Notes under the pieces: generated by a model
Databases searched by the model: none
What the model saw: the letters and a program-made list of their open reading frames with translations, nothing else
Told to the model about the DNA's origin: nothing
Shown here: piece by piece, positions 1,164-6,748 of the stretch
Position numbering within the stretch: the stretch's first letter is position 1
Layout of the letters: the number at the start of each line of letters is the position of its first letter
Assembly (NCBI GenBank): GCA_004298015.1
Contig: SCSE01000062.1
Span: forward strand, 1 to 64,000
Source of the DNA: Rhodanobacter sp.
GTDB taxonomy: Bacteria > Pseudomonadota > Gammaproteobacteria > Xanthomonadales > Rhodanobacteraceae
DNA: 64,000 nt
Reading direction: 5' to 3'
Program-made: the position numbers and the translations under genes

Positions 1164-3041
1164 CTATTGCGCGTCTTGCAACTGCCCTTGCACCTGGTTG
1201 ATCGAGTCGCGGATGCGTTTGCTGAAGACCGAGTCGTCGTGGTGGATCAGCAGCAGGTGTTCGGTGGCGCGGGTCATCGCCACGTAGAGCAGGCGCGCCT
1301 CGTCGGCCTCGCGCTGGCCGTCCTTCGGCAACGAGCCGAGGCCGGGGATGATCACGAATGGGAATTCCAGCCCCTTGCTGGAATGCATGGTGATCAGCTT
1401 GATGCTGTCCTCGACCACGAACAGGGTCTGCTTGCCGGCGTTGTCGGCGAGCCGACTGGGGATGCTCAGGCGCTGCAGTACCTCGTGCAGCTTCTCGCCT
1501 TCCCACTGGTTGCGGTACAGCACGGCCATGTCGGCGTACGGGCGGCCGTGGGCGTGTTCGTCCTGCAGCCGGGCGATCAGCACGTCGAGCTGGGCGCGGG
1601 CGGTATCGGTGCGTACCAGCTCGGGCACGGCGCCGCGACGGCCTGAGCTTTGCGGTGCGATCAGCGGCACGCCGTCGTCGTCGTCGCTGCGCGAGGTGAG
1701 CAGATCCTGCGCGAACACGCGCGCTACGGAGAGGATCTCCAGTGTGTTGCGGTAGTTGAGCTTGAGGATGGTGGTGCGGCCCTGCGCCTGCACGCCGAGG
1801 CTTTTCCAGCTGATCTTGCGCCGCTCGGTGTTGCCGTAGATGTTCTGCGCGTCGTCGTACAGCACCAGCAGCGAATTGGTGGCCGGGTCGATCATCTGCA
1901 CGATCAGCTTGTACCAGTCCGGCTCGAAGTCGTGGCCTTCGTCGACCAGCACGGCGCCGTACTGGAAACGCGGGATCTGCCCGCGATCCACGCCATCGAT
2001 GACGTGCTGCACCATCTGCTCGAAGAAATGCTTGCTGCCCTGCGCGGGCAGCTCCACATGGTAGGCCACCAGCATCTTGCGGCACCAACGATGGAAGTTG
2101 TAGACCTGCACCTTCTCGCTGAGGCCGCGTTCGCCGATCAGTTGTTCCAGCCGCGCGGCCAGCGTCTTGTTGTAGCAGAGCACCAGGATGGGCTTTCCCA
2201 CCTCGCGCGCGAGCTGCATCGCGCGAAAGCCCAGGATCATGGTCTTGCCCGAGCCTGCCACGCCGTGGATGACACGATGCTCGCCGCCGATCGAGCGCGC
2301 CAGTTGCTCCTGCTGCGCGTCCATCACCTTGACCAGGTCGGGGATCTCCAGCGGTCGCACCGCGGCGTCGGTGGGGCCGAACAGGCCGAACTGGCCGCTG
2401 CCGGCTTCGACCCGCAACTCGGGAAACAGGTGCCAGCGCACCCGATCGATCTGCGGCAGGGTGAGCGCCACCGGAAACACCTGCGGGAACATCGCCCACA
2501 GCTGTTGCTGGAATGCCTCGGCTTCGACCGTCTCGTACAGCTCGTCGCGGCAGATCGCCAGGTGCTCGGGCAGCACTTCAGCCAGTGCACCCTCGTCGAA
2601 CTGCTTGCGGGTGATATTGGCCAGCACCACGCCCCAGGCCCACGGCATGATCAGTTTGCCGGCGTGGCGCGAGCCTTCGGGGTGGCGCAGCGCGGGGTCG
2701 CGTTCGAGCACCACGCCGATTTCCAGCGCATACGCGCGCGCCTGCAGCAGCGGGTTGTTCTCCTTCACCAGTCCGCGCTCGGTGACCAGGGTGAACTGGG
2801 TGCTGTCGGCATGGCGGATGGTGTCGGCCTTCCAGTCCTTCACCTCCAGCACCAGCAGGCCGCGGCGCGGATGGAAGATCACAAAGTCCGGATGCCGCTG
2901 TTTCAGCCCGATCGGCACGTCATACCACAGCAGGTAGTCGTCCTCGAGCTTGTGCTCCAGGCGTTCGGAGACGCGCTTCTCGCCGCCGGTCATCCGTGGC
3001 AGGCAGCTGTTGCGGGTTGGAATGAGTGTGGCCATGGGCAT
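1164..3041 (-). CDS. NERD nuclease-domain / UvrD-like superfamily 1 helicase
   Basis: 625-residue two-domain protein. The N-terminal third carries the NERD nuclease-related domain, with a PD-(D/E)xK-like pattern (HPDFVIF then LLVLEVKDW, about residues 50-72). The rest is an SF1A helicase: Walker A VAGSGKT near residue 257, DEGH box in LVDEGHDF, motif V ITMHSSKGLEF and motif VI LLYVAMTRATEH. The UvrD/Rep 1B and 2B insertions are short. It probably unwinds and possibly cleaves DNA; members occur both as solitary repair-like genes and in defence islands. ATG codons at 3041 and 3035 are both plausible starts. A methyltransferase relic lies downstream, but no intact restriction gene is visible. 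Confidence 0.9.
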   Translation of the reverse strand: MPMATLIPTRNSCLPRMTGGEKRVSERLEHKLEDDYLLWYDVPIGLKQRHPDFVIFHPRRGLLVLEVKDWKADTIRHADSTQFTLVTERGLVKENNPLLQARAYALEIGVVLERDPALRHPEGSRHAGKLIMPWAWGVVLANITRKQFDEGALAEVLPEHLAICRDELYETVEAEAFQQQLWAMFPQVFPVALTLPQIDRVRWHLFPELRVEAGSGQFGLFGPTDAAVRPLEIPDLVKVMDAQQEQLARSIGGEHRVIHGVAGSGKTMILGFRAMQLAREVGKPILVLCYNKTLAARLEQLIGERGLSEKVQVYNFHRWCRKMLVAYHVELPAQGSKHFFEQMVQHVIDGVDRGQIPRFQYGAVLVDEGHDFEPDWYKLIVQMIDPATNSLLVLYDDAQNIYGNTERRKISWKSLGVQAQGRTTILKLNYRNTLEILSVARVFAQDLLTSRSDDDDGVPLIAPQSSGRRGAVPELVRTDTARAQLDVLIARLQDEHAHGRPYADMAVLYRNQWEGEKLHEVLQRLSIPSRLADNAGKQTLFVVEDSIKLITMHSSKGLEFPFVIIPGLGSLPKDGQREADEARLLYVAMTRATEHLLLIHHDDSVFSKRIRDSINQVQGQLQDAQ

Positions 3042-4415: not shown

Positions 4416-5339
4416 TCAGTCCCAACGTGTCAGCGCCGAGGGCTGCAGTCCCGCCCGCTCGCAGGCGCGGCTTGCGATGCCATCTCGCAGCGCGCTGCGA
4501 AATGCCGGCGCGATCGACCACAGCGCGTGTGCTGCCAACCGAGCCTGCCGTTGTTGCCATGGCGTACGTTGCAGCAGGGGCAACGCCCACGCCGGCAGCA
4601 AGGCGGCGCCGGCATGTAGAAAAAGGTCCCGTGACAGTCCGGCCGCTGGCACCGGCAGCCGTACCTGCGACAGCAGCTCGAGTACCTCGCGCGAGCGTTC
4701 GGTGAAGGCCAGTTCGGGCAGGATGCGCTGGAAGTAAGCGGCGACGGCCTGCTCGGAGGCCGGTACCCCGCGCGCACCCAACGCCTCAGCAATCCGGCGC
4801 ACCTCGTCGTAATACTGATCGGCTGCGCCCGGGGGCAGGCGGATGTGACTGTAGCGGCGATAGCCTTGAAGAAAACTGCAGGCCTCGGTGACATGCACCC
4901 AGGTCAGCAGGTCCGGATCATCGGCCCGGTAGGGTTGCCCATATTGGTCGAAGCCGGCAATCCGTGCGTGGATTTGCCGCACCCGTTCGATCATCGCCTT
5001 GGCCTGCGCCTGGGGCGCATACGTCGTGCCGCCGACAAAGGCTGTGGTCCGGCGCAGCCGTCCGAGCAAGTCATGGCGGAAACTGGAATGGTCCCAGACC
5101 GCGGCAAGCGCGCGCGGATGCAGTGTCTGTAGCGTCAGCGCCGCCAGTCCGCCGGCCAGCATGCCGGGGAAATCCGCGTGGATGCGCCAGGTGGCGCCGG
5201 TCGGATCGAACAGGCCCGGGTCACCCAGTGGCTGGTCGTAGTCGATACCGCTGGCGCGGTCACGCGGAAAGGCATTCAACACCCAGTGACGTATCGGCTC
5301 GCCGACAGTGCGTGACAACAGTTGCAGGGGAGATCGCAT
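4416..5339 (-). CDS. Oxygenase MpaB family protein (DUF2236)
   Basis: 307-residue protein of the MpaB / latex-clearing-protein family, heme-dependent or putative oxygenases of mostly unknown substrate. Typical family features are GGLAALTLQTLHPRALAAVW near residue 63, the D-H-S-S-F segment after it, and LTWVHVTEACSF near residue 145, whose histidines are candidate heme or metal ligands. The gene is single, convergent with the cyclase remnant (15 bases between their stops), and starts with ATG at 5339. No signal peptide is evident. Substrate unknown. Confidence 0.88.
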   Translation of the reverse strand: MRSPLQLLSRTVGEPIRHWVLNAFPRDRASGIDYDQPLGDPGLFDPTGATWRIHADFPGMLAGGLAALTLQTLHPRALAAVWDHSSFRHDLLGRLRRTTAFVGGTTYAPQAQAKAMIERVRQIHARIAGFDQYGQPYRADDPDLLTWVHVTEACSFLQGYRRYSHIRLPPGAADQYYDEVRRIAEALGARGVPASEQAVAAYFQRILPELAFTERSREVLELLSQVRLPVPAAGLSRDLFLHAGAALLPAWALPLLQRTPWQQRQARLAAHALWSIAPAFRSALRDGIASRACERAGLQPSALTRWD

Positions 5340-5475
5340 CAGGTGATCTTAATCGCTTGCACCGGGTTCAGGACCGAGCACTCTGGCGGCGGCGGTCACT
5401 GCCGCGGACTTCCCGCGTCGGGCTTATGCCGATAGCTTGTTTGATTTGGCCGTCTGTTGTGCTATTGATAAGCGC

Positions 5476-5556
5476 ATGGTCCTTTCCGCCGCCCGCTACT
5501 ATTTCTGGTTTTACGGCTATCCGATGCTGCAGGCGGAGCTAGGGGCGCGATCGTAA
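5476..5556 (+). CDS. Aromatic-rich leader peptide upstream of DAHP synthase
   Basis: A 26-codon ORF, too short for routine gene calling, reads MVLSAARYYFWFYGYPMLQ and then seven more residues to TAA at 5554. Seven of its eight codons from 5497 to 5520 specify Tyr, Tyr, Phe, Trp, Phe, Tyr and Tyr, so all three end products of the shikimate pathway are sensed. It is followed after 21 bases by a strong intrinsic terminator and then by the DAHP synthase gene, the classic layout of a ribosome-mediated attenuator. The ATG at 5476 has only a weak upstream purine stretch (GATAAGCG). Confidence 0.8.
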   Translation: MVLSAARYYFWFYGYPMLQAELGARS

Positions 5557-5577
5557 AACACCGATCAAGATCATCCC

Positions 5578-5612
5578 GAAAAGCCGCCAGCCCACACACT
5601 GGCGGCTTTTTT
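5578..5612 (+). terminator. Attenuator terminator of the DAHP synthase leader
   Basis: AAAAGCCGCCAG (5579-5590) pairs with CTGGCGGCTTTT (5599-5610) around an eight-base loop and runs into six T residues. It sits between the leader peptide and the aro start codon. Competing pairings are visible: TCCGCC at 5485-5490 with GGCGGA at 5532-5537, and GGCGG at 5532-5536 with CCGCC at 5584-5588. These would serve as the 1:2 and 2:3 structures of an attenuator, though the 2:3 core is only five pairs. Confidence 0.85.
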
Positions 5613-5650: not shown

Positions 5651-6748
5651 ATGAAACCCAGCACCACATCATCGCCGACCGGCGCTACCGACGACCTGCG
5701 TATTCGTGAGCTGAAGCGATTGAGTACGCCGGCCGAAGTGATCGGCGACTGCGGCAACAGCGAGCGGGCCGGCATCACCGTGACCGAAGCCCGCAGCCGG
5801 CTGCATGACATTCTCAGCGGCAACGACGACCGCCTCGCCGTGGTGATCGGGCCATGCTCGATCCACGACACCCACGCGGCGCTGGAATACGCGAGCCGCC
5901 TGCAGGCCGAGCGCTCGCGTCATGCCGATACGCTGGAAATCGTCATGCGGGTGTATTTCGAGAAACCGCGCACCACGGTGGGCTGGAAGGGGCTGATCAA
6001 CGATCCCGATCTGGACGGCAGCTTCCGCATCGATCGCGGGCTGCATCTGGCGCGCGGCCTGCTGATCGGCATCAACGAACTGGGCGTGCCCGCGGGTTGC
6101 GAATTCCTCGACATGATCACGCCGCAGTACATTGCCGATCTGGTCGCCTGGGGTGCCATCGGTGCGCGTACCACCGAGAGCCAGGTTCACCGCGAACTGG
6201 CTTCGGGACTGTCCTGTCCGGTCGGTTTCAAGAACGGCACCGATGGCAACGTGAAGATCGCGGTGGATGCGGTACAGGCCGCCTCGCAGCCGCATCATTT
6301 CCTCGCCGTGACCAAGGACGGCCGCACCGCAATCGCCACCACCGGCGGCAATGAGGACTGCCACCTCATCCTGCGTGGCGGCAGTGCGCCGAACTATGAC
6401 GCGGCCAGCGTCCAGGCCGCTTGCGCGGCCATGTCCCACGGTGGCGTGCCGCCGCGGCTGATGATCGACGCCAGCCATGCAAACAGCGGCAAGAAACCGG
6501 AAAACCAGCCGCGGGTAGTCGACGATATCGCCCACCAGGTCGCGACCGGCGAGTCGCGCGTGATCGGTGTGATGGTGGAAAGCCATCTGATCGGCGGGCG
6601 ACAGGATCTGCATCCGGGCCAGCCGCTGGTGCACGGTCAGAGCATTACCGATGGCTGCCTCGACTGGGGATCGTCGGTGGCAGTGCTGGATCGACTTGCC
6701 GAGGCAGTACGGGAGCGTCGGCGGCTTCGAAACCGACGGGTGGCCTGA
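5651..6748 (+). CDS. aroG: 3-deoxy-7-phosphoheptulonate synthase (class I, AroF/G/H type)
   Basis: First enzyme of the shikimate pathway, condensing phosphoenolpyruvate and erythrose 4-phosphate. The 365-residue product aligns throughout with E. coli AroG/F/H: VIGPCSIHD with the metal-binding cysteine, EKPRTTVGWKGLINDP for PEP binding, GARTTESQVHRELASGLS, GFKNGTDG, MIDASHAN and the C-terminal QSITDGCLDW. Which aromatic amino acid inhibits it cannot be read reliably, so the symbol is for the family. The leader peptide with Tyr, Phe and Trp codons plus a terminator suggests expression is controlled by charged aromatic tRNA levels rather than (or as well as) TyrR/TrpR repression. The gene is monocistronic as far as can be seen; osmC follows convergently. 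Confidence 0.95.
   Translation: MKPSTTSSPTGATDDLRIRELKRLSTPAEVIGDCGNSERAGITVTEARSRLHDILSGNDDRLAVVIGPCSIHDTHAALEYASRLQAERSRHADTLEIVMRVYFEKPRTTVGWKGLINDPDLDGSFRIDRGLHLARGLLIGINELGVPAGCEFLDMITPQYIADLVAWGAIGARTTESQVHRELASGLSCPVGFKNGTDGNVKIAVDAVQAASQPHHFLAVTKDGRTAIATTGGNEDCHLILRGGSAPNYDAASVQAACAAMSHGGVPPRLMIDASHANSGKKPENQPRVVDDIAHQVATGESRVIGVMVESHLIGGRQDLHPGQPLVHGQSITDGCLDWGSSVAVLDRLAEAVRERRRLRNRRVA

Follow-up and report, generated by a model that had tools for sequence, protein, structure and literature searches.

The step that commits carbon to Tyr, Phe and Trp alike is catalysed by DAHP synthase, and in the textbook scheme of E. coli this entry point is served by three DAHP synthase isoenzymes under TyrR and TrpR. 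The locus studied here raises the question of how the supply of Tyr, Phe and Trp could be read at one DAHP synthase gene. The window, by which we mean the whole 64-kb stretch of DNA that was analysed, carries on its forward strand a type I DAHP synthase gene of the aroFGH family (5651-6748; PF00793, 305 bits; TIGR00034, 510 bits against a cut-off of 173), which is the only type I match in its own genome. Its product catalyses the first step in the synthesis of the amino acids that would be sensed. A preliminary description had placed a 26-codon ORF with a Tyr-Tyr-Phe-Trp-Phe-Tyr-Gly-Tyr run at 5497-5520, followed by a perfect 12-bp hairpin with a T tract, ahead of the gene and had called the arrangement a probable attenuator. 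The ORF and its run are present exactly as stated, the hairpin is confirmed, and comparison with relatives supports the interpretation: the ORF recurs at 90 of 91 family loci, the terminator follows 89 of 89 leaders, and only 0 to 2 of 5000 strand exchanges equal the native antiterminator pairing. From this comparative evidence we put the probability of ribosome-mediated transcription attenuation of the DAHP synthase gene at roughly 90%.

The leader ORF and its start

The leader ORF (MVLSAARYYFWFYGYPMLQAELGARS; forward strand, 5476-5556) runs from an ATG at 5476 to a TAA at 5554-5556, and its aromatic codons form the probable stall region. Among ORFs of 10-60 amino acids on both strands of the window, it is the sole one with seven aromatic residues in eight consecutive positions; one further short ORF reaches six of eight and has no terminator, and ORFs with at least six aromatic residues numbered zero in 30 first-order Markov windows that served as a chance control. 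No second copy of the leader was found in the window's own genome.

Conservation was assessed in 197 genomes of the window's family. The enzyme was matched in 92 of these, and after one match was left out (G105; 57 residues, E 4.8e-4) the upstream regions of all 91 remaining type I genes were compared. The count of 90 loci with a leader includes the window (89 of 90 plus G056), and the 89 leaders other than that of G056 were analysed in detail. As the preliminary description had anticipated for a genuine attenuator, the short ORF and its aromatic codons are conserved in these relatives. Phe, Trp and Tyr are all present in every one of the 89 leaders, with an invariant Trp codon, while the Tyr and Phe positions conserve the residue and vary synonymously in the codon; leader lengths differ by whole codons. 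The synonymous variation and the whole-codon length differences together indicate that the reading frame is under selection. The family includes Dyella: two family enzymes match those of named Dyella contigs at every column used. At the sole family type I locus without a leader (L111, with the longer stretch L241, from genome G136), the upstream stretch looks replaced.

Like the window's ORF, which has no Shine-Dalgarno-like sequence, none of the 89 family leaders carries a Shine-Dalgarno-like tetramer at -16 to -4, a region in which 9.4% of random stretches do; under a lenient control, such a tetramer stands before some in-frame start candidate in 87 of 89 DAHP synthase genes. Upstream of the window's leader, a probable extended -10 element (TGTGCTATTGAT; forward strand, 5458-5469) includes a TGnTA box that is conserved in the family and starts 15-19 nt upstream of the ATG in 87 of 89 leaders. 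A probable -35 element, TTGATT (forward strand, 5441-5446), can be read from the sequence 16 nt upstream of the -10 hexamer, and columns -37 to -35 are T-rich in the leaders of the 89 relatives. A consensus promoter scan detected no promoter upstream of the leader. In a wide set of 52 leaders, a Shine-Dalgarno-like tetramer occurs once and a crude -10 search matched just 15. Because of the spacing between the -10 element and the ATG, transcription is predicted to begin on the leader AUG or no more than about 2 nt from it, and the ORF is probably leaderless. Published precedents for this arrangement are Sinorhizobium trpL (PMC7298713, PMC10117765) and the Streptomyces leuL, trpL and ilvL leaders, whose transcripts begin at the leader AUG (PMC8079986). 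The DAHP synthase leader would resemble these if its transcript starts where predicted from promoter spacing; they serve other genes and other amino acids. The predicted leader promoter shares its 136-nt intergenic stretch with a divergent gene (reverse strand, 4416-5339) for an MPAB/Lcp-type oxygenase domain protein (PF09995). Another reverse-strand gene (1164-3041) encodes a protein with NERD nuclease-related and UvrD-like helicase domains.

Terminator, antiterminator and protector strands

The terminator hairpin has 12 perfect pairs (5579-5590 with 5599-5610), or 13 when a G-U pair at its base is counted. Its 5′ arm (strand 3; forward strand, 5578-5590) is common to the antiterminator, and its 3′ arm, which extends to 5611, forms strand 4 together with the T tract (forward strand, 5599-5612). 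The segment 5568-5615 folds at -21.8 kcal/mol, with a z of -6.7 against 200 shuffles. In all 89 analysed family leaders a terminator lies downstream, 20-35 nt past the stop codon, and RNAalifold recovered it on 60 sequences. The compensatory changes that the preliminary description had looked for in the stems of relatives are seen here, in three of nine terminator pairs, amounting to 27 cells against 5.3 in shuffles, with none of 500 shuffles as good.

The competing strands are predicted to lie within the coding sequence of the leader ORF. Strand 1, the 5′ strand of a protector stem (forward strand, 5479-5496), folds with strand 2, the 5′ strand of the antiterminator (forward strand, 5529-5553). 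In the fold of 5518-5601, strand 2 contributes its core GGCGG (5532-5536), then 5542-5546 and GATCG (5549-5553), and the spacer strand (forward strand, 5562-5577) supplies the antiterminator inner stem through CGATC (5562-5566) and 5574-5577. In E. coli trpL, strand 2 lies downstream of the stop codon, which sets that attenuator apart from the present one. The pairing of TCCGCC (5485-5490) with GGCGGA (5532-5537) given in the preliminary description is exactly complementary, but it is one of two registers and the pairing extends further; the folding program favours CCGCC (5489-5493) with 5532-5536, plus 5479-5484 with 5541-5546. The alternative partner proposed there for GGCGG, CCGCC (5584-5588) in the terminator 5′ arm, is also exactly complementary.

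These pairings were evaluated with a swap test, in which the pairing energy of each genome's own strands is compared with that of strands exchanged between genomes. We relied on this alignment-free test because sequences shorter by one codon (L134, L147, L158) were misaligned by MAFFT. Dereplication is its sole correction for relatedness, and the family control pairing of strands 1 and 3, at 7 of 2000, means that relatedness by itself yields some swap-test signal. For the terminator (strands 3 and 4), no permutation was as good in any of the three sets (family, mixed n=38, mixed n=20). For the whole antiterminator with its inner stem, 0, 0, 2, 0, 0 and 1 of 5000 were as good at n=61, 26, 15, 31, 38 and 20, respectively. 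The inner stem alone gave 0, 13 and 20 of 5000 in the family sets (n=61, 26, 15), 1173 of 5000 in the wide set (n=31), and 30 and 472 of 5000 in the mixed sets (n=38, n=20). The core pairing of strands 2 and 3 was equalled by 2 of 5000 (mixed n=38) and 29 of 5000 (mixed n=20); inside the family, where the strand core is invariant, it shows no covariation (348 of 2000), and with the loop included 506 of 5000 family permutations were as good, against none of 5000 for the wide set. No permutation equalled the protector (strands 1 and 2) among 2000 for the family (n=60) or among 5000 at mixed n=38, but 862 of 5000 did so at mixed n=20, the most divergent sequences, and RNAalifold on 60 sequences recovered no protector stem. 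Among the controls, out of 5000 in the mixed sets (n=38 and n=20), strands 1 and 3 gave 3232 and 2015, strands 1 and 4 gave 253 and 519, and strands 2 and 4 gave 1961 and 2047; pairing of the middle segment with strand 2 in the family gave 550 of 2000. The swap tests therefore support the predicted terminator and antiterminator pairings, and they support the protector stem in all sets but that of the 20 most divergent sequences. Comparison across genomes thus shows the leader ORF with its aromatic codons, the terminator, and strands of the terminator and antiterminator that covary.

Folding of the RNA with and without a ribosome bears on how these strands might alternate. With no ribosome, the terminator and the protector each form in all 60 family sequences; of the 52 wide-set sequences, 50 form the terminator and 39 the protector. 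With a ribosome on the Trp codon and strand 4 absent, strand 3 is paired with the part of the ORF downstream of the ribosome in all 60 family sequences and in 50 of the 52 from the wide set, compared with 34 to 46 of 60 when the remainder of the ORF is shuffled. Once strand 4 is present beside the stalled ribosome, the terminator prevails at equilibrium in 52 of 60 family and 45 of 52 wide-set sequences, which means that antiterminator capture would have to be kinetic. In terms of overall stability, the window's ORF and the segment 5476-5601 fold no better than shuffled sequences (165 and 182 of 200 shuffles as good, respectively), and for the antiterminator segment alone 41 of 200 shuffles were as good. 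With the usual ribosome footprint, a ribosome early in the aromatic run would cover strand 1 but not strand 2, and a ribosome at the stop codon would have its rear edge at strand 2. The distance from GCGGAG to the start of the stop codon is 15 or 18 nt in 86 of 89 family leaders.

Taken as a mechanism, these features would operate as follows; we infer the start site and the stalling, as well as capture on a kinetic basis and a response to each amino acid on its own. Transcription would start at or next to the leader AUG. When Tyr-, Phe- and Trp-tRNAs are charged, the ribosome would pass the aromatic codons and reach the stop codon, strand 2 would be occupied or re-paired with strand 1, and strand 3 would be free to pair with strand 4, so that RNA polymerase would stop at the T tract. 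When any of the three amino acids is short, the ribosome would halt in the aromatic run, over strand 1, and strand 2 could capture strand 3 before strand 4 is made, allowing transcription of DAHP synthase.

Signals read by the leader and relation to known systems

The proposal that one attenuator reads all three aromatic amino acids fits the leader sequences of the window's family, each of which holds Phe, Trp and Tyr codons. A narrower reading, which we consider unlikely though it deserves serious weight, is that the leader attenuates but answers to only one or two of the three, with the Trp codon or the last Tyr codon as passengers. Such selectivity has been described for the Phe-Tyr-Phe leader aroR of Corynebacterium, where Phe limitation alone acts (PMC11802643), and in our wide set all three aromatic residues are present in 37 of 52 leaders and Trp is absent from 14. 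The invariance of Trp across the family, and the presence of all three residues in each of its 89 leaders, argue against this narrower reading. The set of amino acids sensed may differ between lineages.

Codon choice in the family leaders departs from that of the DAHP synthase genes, with UUU, UAU and CGA over-used. At column 14, Phe is encoded by UUU in 73 of 74 leaders (8% in the gene), and at column 17 UAU encodes Tyr in 74 of 77 (27% in the gene), from which the aromatic stretch would appear to be an A+U-rich, slowly decoded run. Outside this run, codons are frozen beyond the choice of residue, as with Ala (GCG in all 89 leaders) and Arg (CGA in 77 of 85). The GCG-GAG codon pair holds the GGCGG strand, which can pair with the protector strand in codons 2-9 as well as with the 5′ arm of the terminator, and many folds pair the CGA-TCG region with either the spacer or the opening codons of the leader. 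In the DAHP synthase genes of the same loci, CGA, the codon at column 27 near the leader end, encodes only 4% of Arg; its preference in the leader could be explained by RNA pairing or by slow decoding. These codons also bear on whether the leader peptide or the terminated RNA additionally acts in trans, like peTrpL/rnTrpL of Sinorhizobium, a precedent with a leaderless attenuator ORF (PMC7298713). The conserved C-terminal residues of our leaders would agree with a peptide function, but since their codons are frozen and lie within paired strands, RNA constraint explains the conservation, and we regard an added action in trans as improbable. Least credible of all is control by a DNA-binding repressor of the TyrR/TrpR type or by a riboswitch with the ORF incidental: E. 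coli DAHP synthase genes are TyrR/TrpR targets (PMC5343134), but the 64-kb window has six TyrR-box-like sites at up to 3 mismatches from the consensus, the nearest more than 15 kb from the leader, which led us to reject a TyrR box near it, no Rfam family reached its gathering score, and neither a repressor nor a riboswitch would need a conserved frame of aromatic codons.

Attenuation of the DAHP synthase gene by the leader would be a mechanism of known kind; the element itself is probably a widespread new leader-peptide attenuator with unusual anatomy. The primary study of the aroR leader of Corynebacterium glutamicum is reportedly Neshat 2014. In Rfam 15, no family reached gathering score for the window or for 20 related loci; Phe_leader scored 17.2 bits at the window against a cut-off of 55, and Trp_leader was absent from the matches at E 10. 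The leader thus differs from the trpL and pheL attenuators catalogued as these families, although it shares with them a leader peptide, predicted alternative hairpins and a terminator (PMC11802643). BcKCsr7 (RF02884) was considered as an annotated Burkholderia form of the element and set aside, since its weak match (16.1 bits) was not supported in the 20 related loci or in the window's own genome; it matched no control genome either. In the open-licence PubMed Central literature, as far as its searchable passages go, we found no description of this attenuator in proteobacteria.

Among the nearest relatives in print, the aroR leader of C. glutamicum precedes aroF and permits read-through under Phe limitation (PMC11802643, PMC4046766). 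It resembles the present leader in placing aromatic codons in a leader peptide upstream of a DAHP synthase gene; compared by description, the cited motif lacks Trp and the passages report no Tyr response, whereas the family leaders have all three residues. In Acholeplasma, the uORFC-13-1 motif before aroF is a predicted uORF with 24 representatives and at least one Phe codon, and for E. coli and Shewanella aroF an attenuator has been proposed as a prediction citing a 1980 paper (PMC8632094, PMC2659441). These too are a uORF or attenuator predicted upstream of a DAHP synthase gene, but set against the E. coli proposal, three enteric loci in our comparison (L104, L107, L109) have no aromatic leader. 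The preliminary description had suggested that a single attenuator reading all three aromatic amino acids would follow a logic different from that of TyrR and TrpR in E. coli; attenuation of a DAHP synthase gene is already in print for Corynebacterium (PMC11802643). What would be new is a combination that we advance tentatively, at somewhat less than even odds: an attenuator family new to the sources searched, acting as an OR gate for three aromatic tRNAs at the shikimate entry, with a leaderless ORF that holds both strands and with otherwise rare UUU, UAU and CGA codons pacing the ribosome, and travelling with a group of type I DAHP synthases through alpha-, beta- and gammaproteobacteria. One RNA switch on one gene would then do the job that isoenzymes plus repressors do in E. 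coli. Such a leader would be a simple test bed for the integration of several tRNA signals by one leader and for leaderless attenuation.

Distribution of the leader and the second DAHP synthase

In the window's family, the type I gene as a rule appears to stand behind one RNA switch whose codons cover Tyr, Phe and Trp. Beyond it, a leader with a terminator was found in 52 of the best 80 named loci, or 49 of 77 after removal of L031-L033 (Dyella or Rhodanobacter); these loci are the best 80 of at least 589 matches, so that the proportion cannot be read as a frequency for DAHP synthases in general. The 49 non-family loci span alpha-, beta- and gammaproteobacteria, including Xanthomonas, Stenotrophomonas, Bradyrhizobium, Mesorhizobium, Devosia and Methylosinus, as well as the Burkholderia group, Cupriavidus, Oxalobacteraceae, Variovorax and unnamed bins. 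The preliminary description had looked to Xanthomonadales, but the leader is not restricted to that order. The recurrence of the predicted switch in Xanthomonas, Bradyrhizobium, Mesorhizobium, Devosia, the Burkholderia group and Oxalobacteraceae, with no Rfam match in the loci searched, indicates a gap in annotation. The leaders of Oxalobacteraceae (L034, L038, L048, L054, L058, L067, L068, L083) are rich in Phe and Tyr and have no Trp codon. The remaining 28 of the best 80 loci failed the leader-plus-terminator test; among them, L101 has an aromatic leader with no terminator by the rule used, L092 has a leader-like ORF with a different stem, and L108 has a terminator with no aromatic leader.

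A covariance model built from 60 family leaders was used to search genomes of the order (299) and phylum (398) at E 0.001, and matched 141 and 120 of them, respectively; matches below about 36 bits were mostly partial and were not counted. All 38 of the best loci precede a DAHP synthase gene and have an aromatic leader (at least four aromatic residues in ten), nine of the 38 being from the window and family genomes. In a quick tree of 110 DAHP synthases (82 with a leader, 28 without), the leader label needs seven changes. Enzymes from alphaproteobacteria and Xanthomonadales group together (SH-aLRT 96) and adjoin those of Burkholderiales, with 36 of 105 inner branches open. This topology is compatible with joint transfer of leader and gene and does not show such transfer.

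The family genomes also carry a type II DAHP synthase, in 193 of 197 cases. None of the 30 type II loci that we looked at has an upstream ORF with five aromatic residues in ten, and we rejected the type II gene as a carrier of the aromatic leader. The attenuated type I gene would then encode a second, regulated enzyme beside type II. Upstream of the type II genes (L171-L200) we noted many short ORFs with endings of the GSGEC...GLxMPxW type, apparently the end of the upstream gene.
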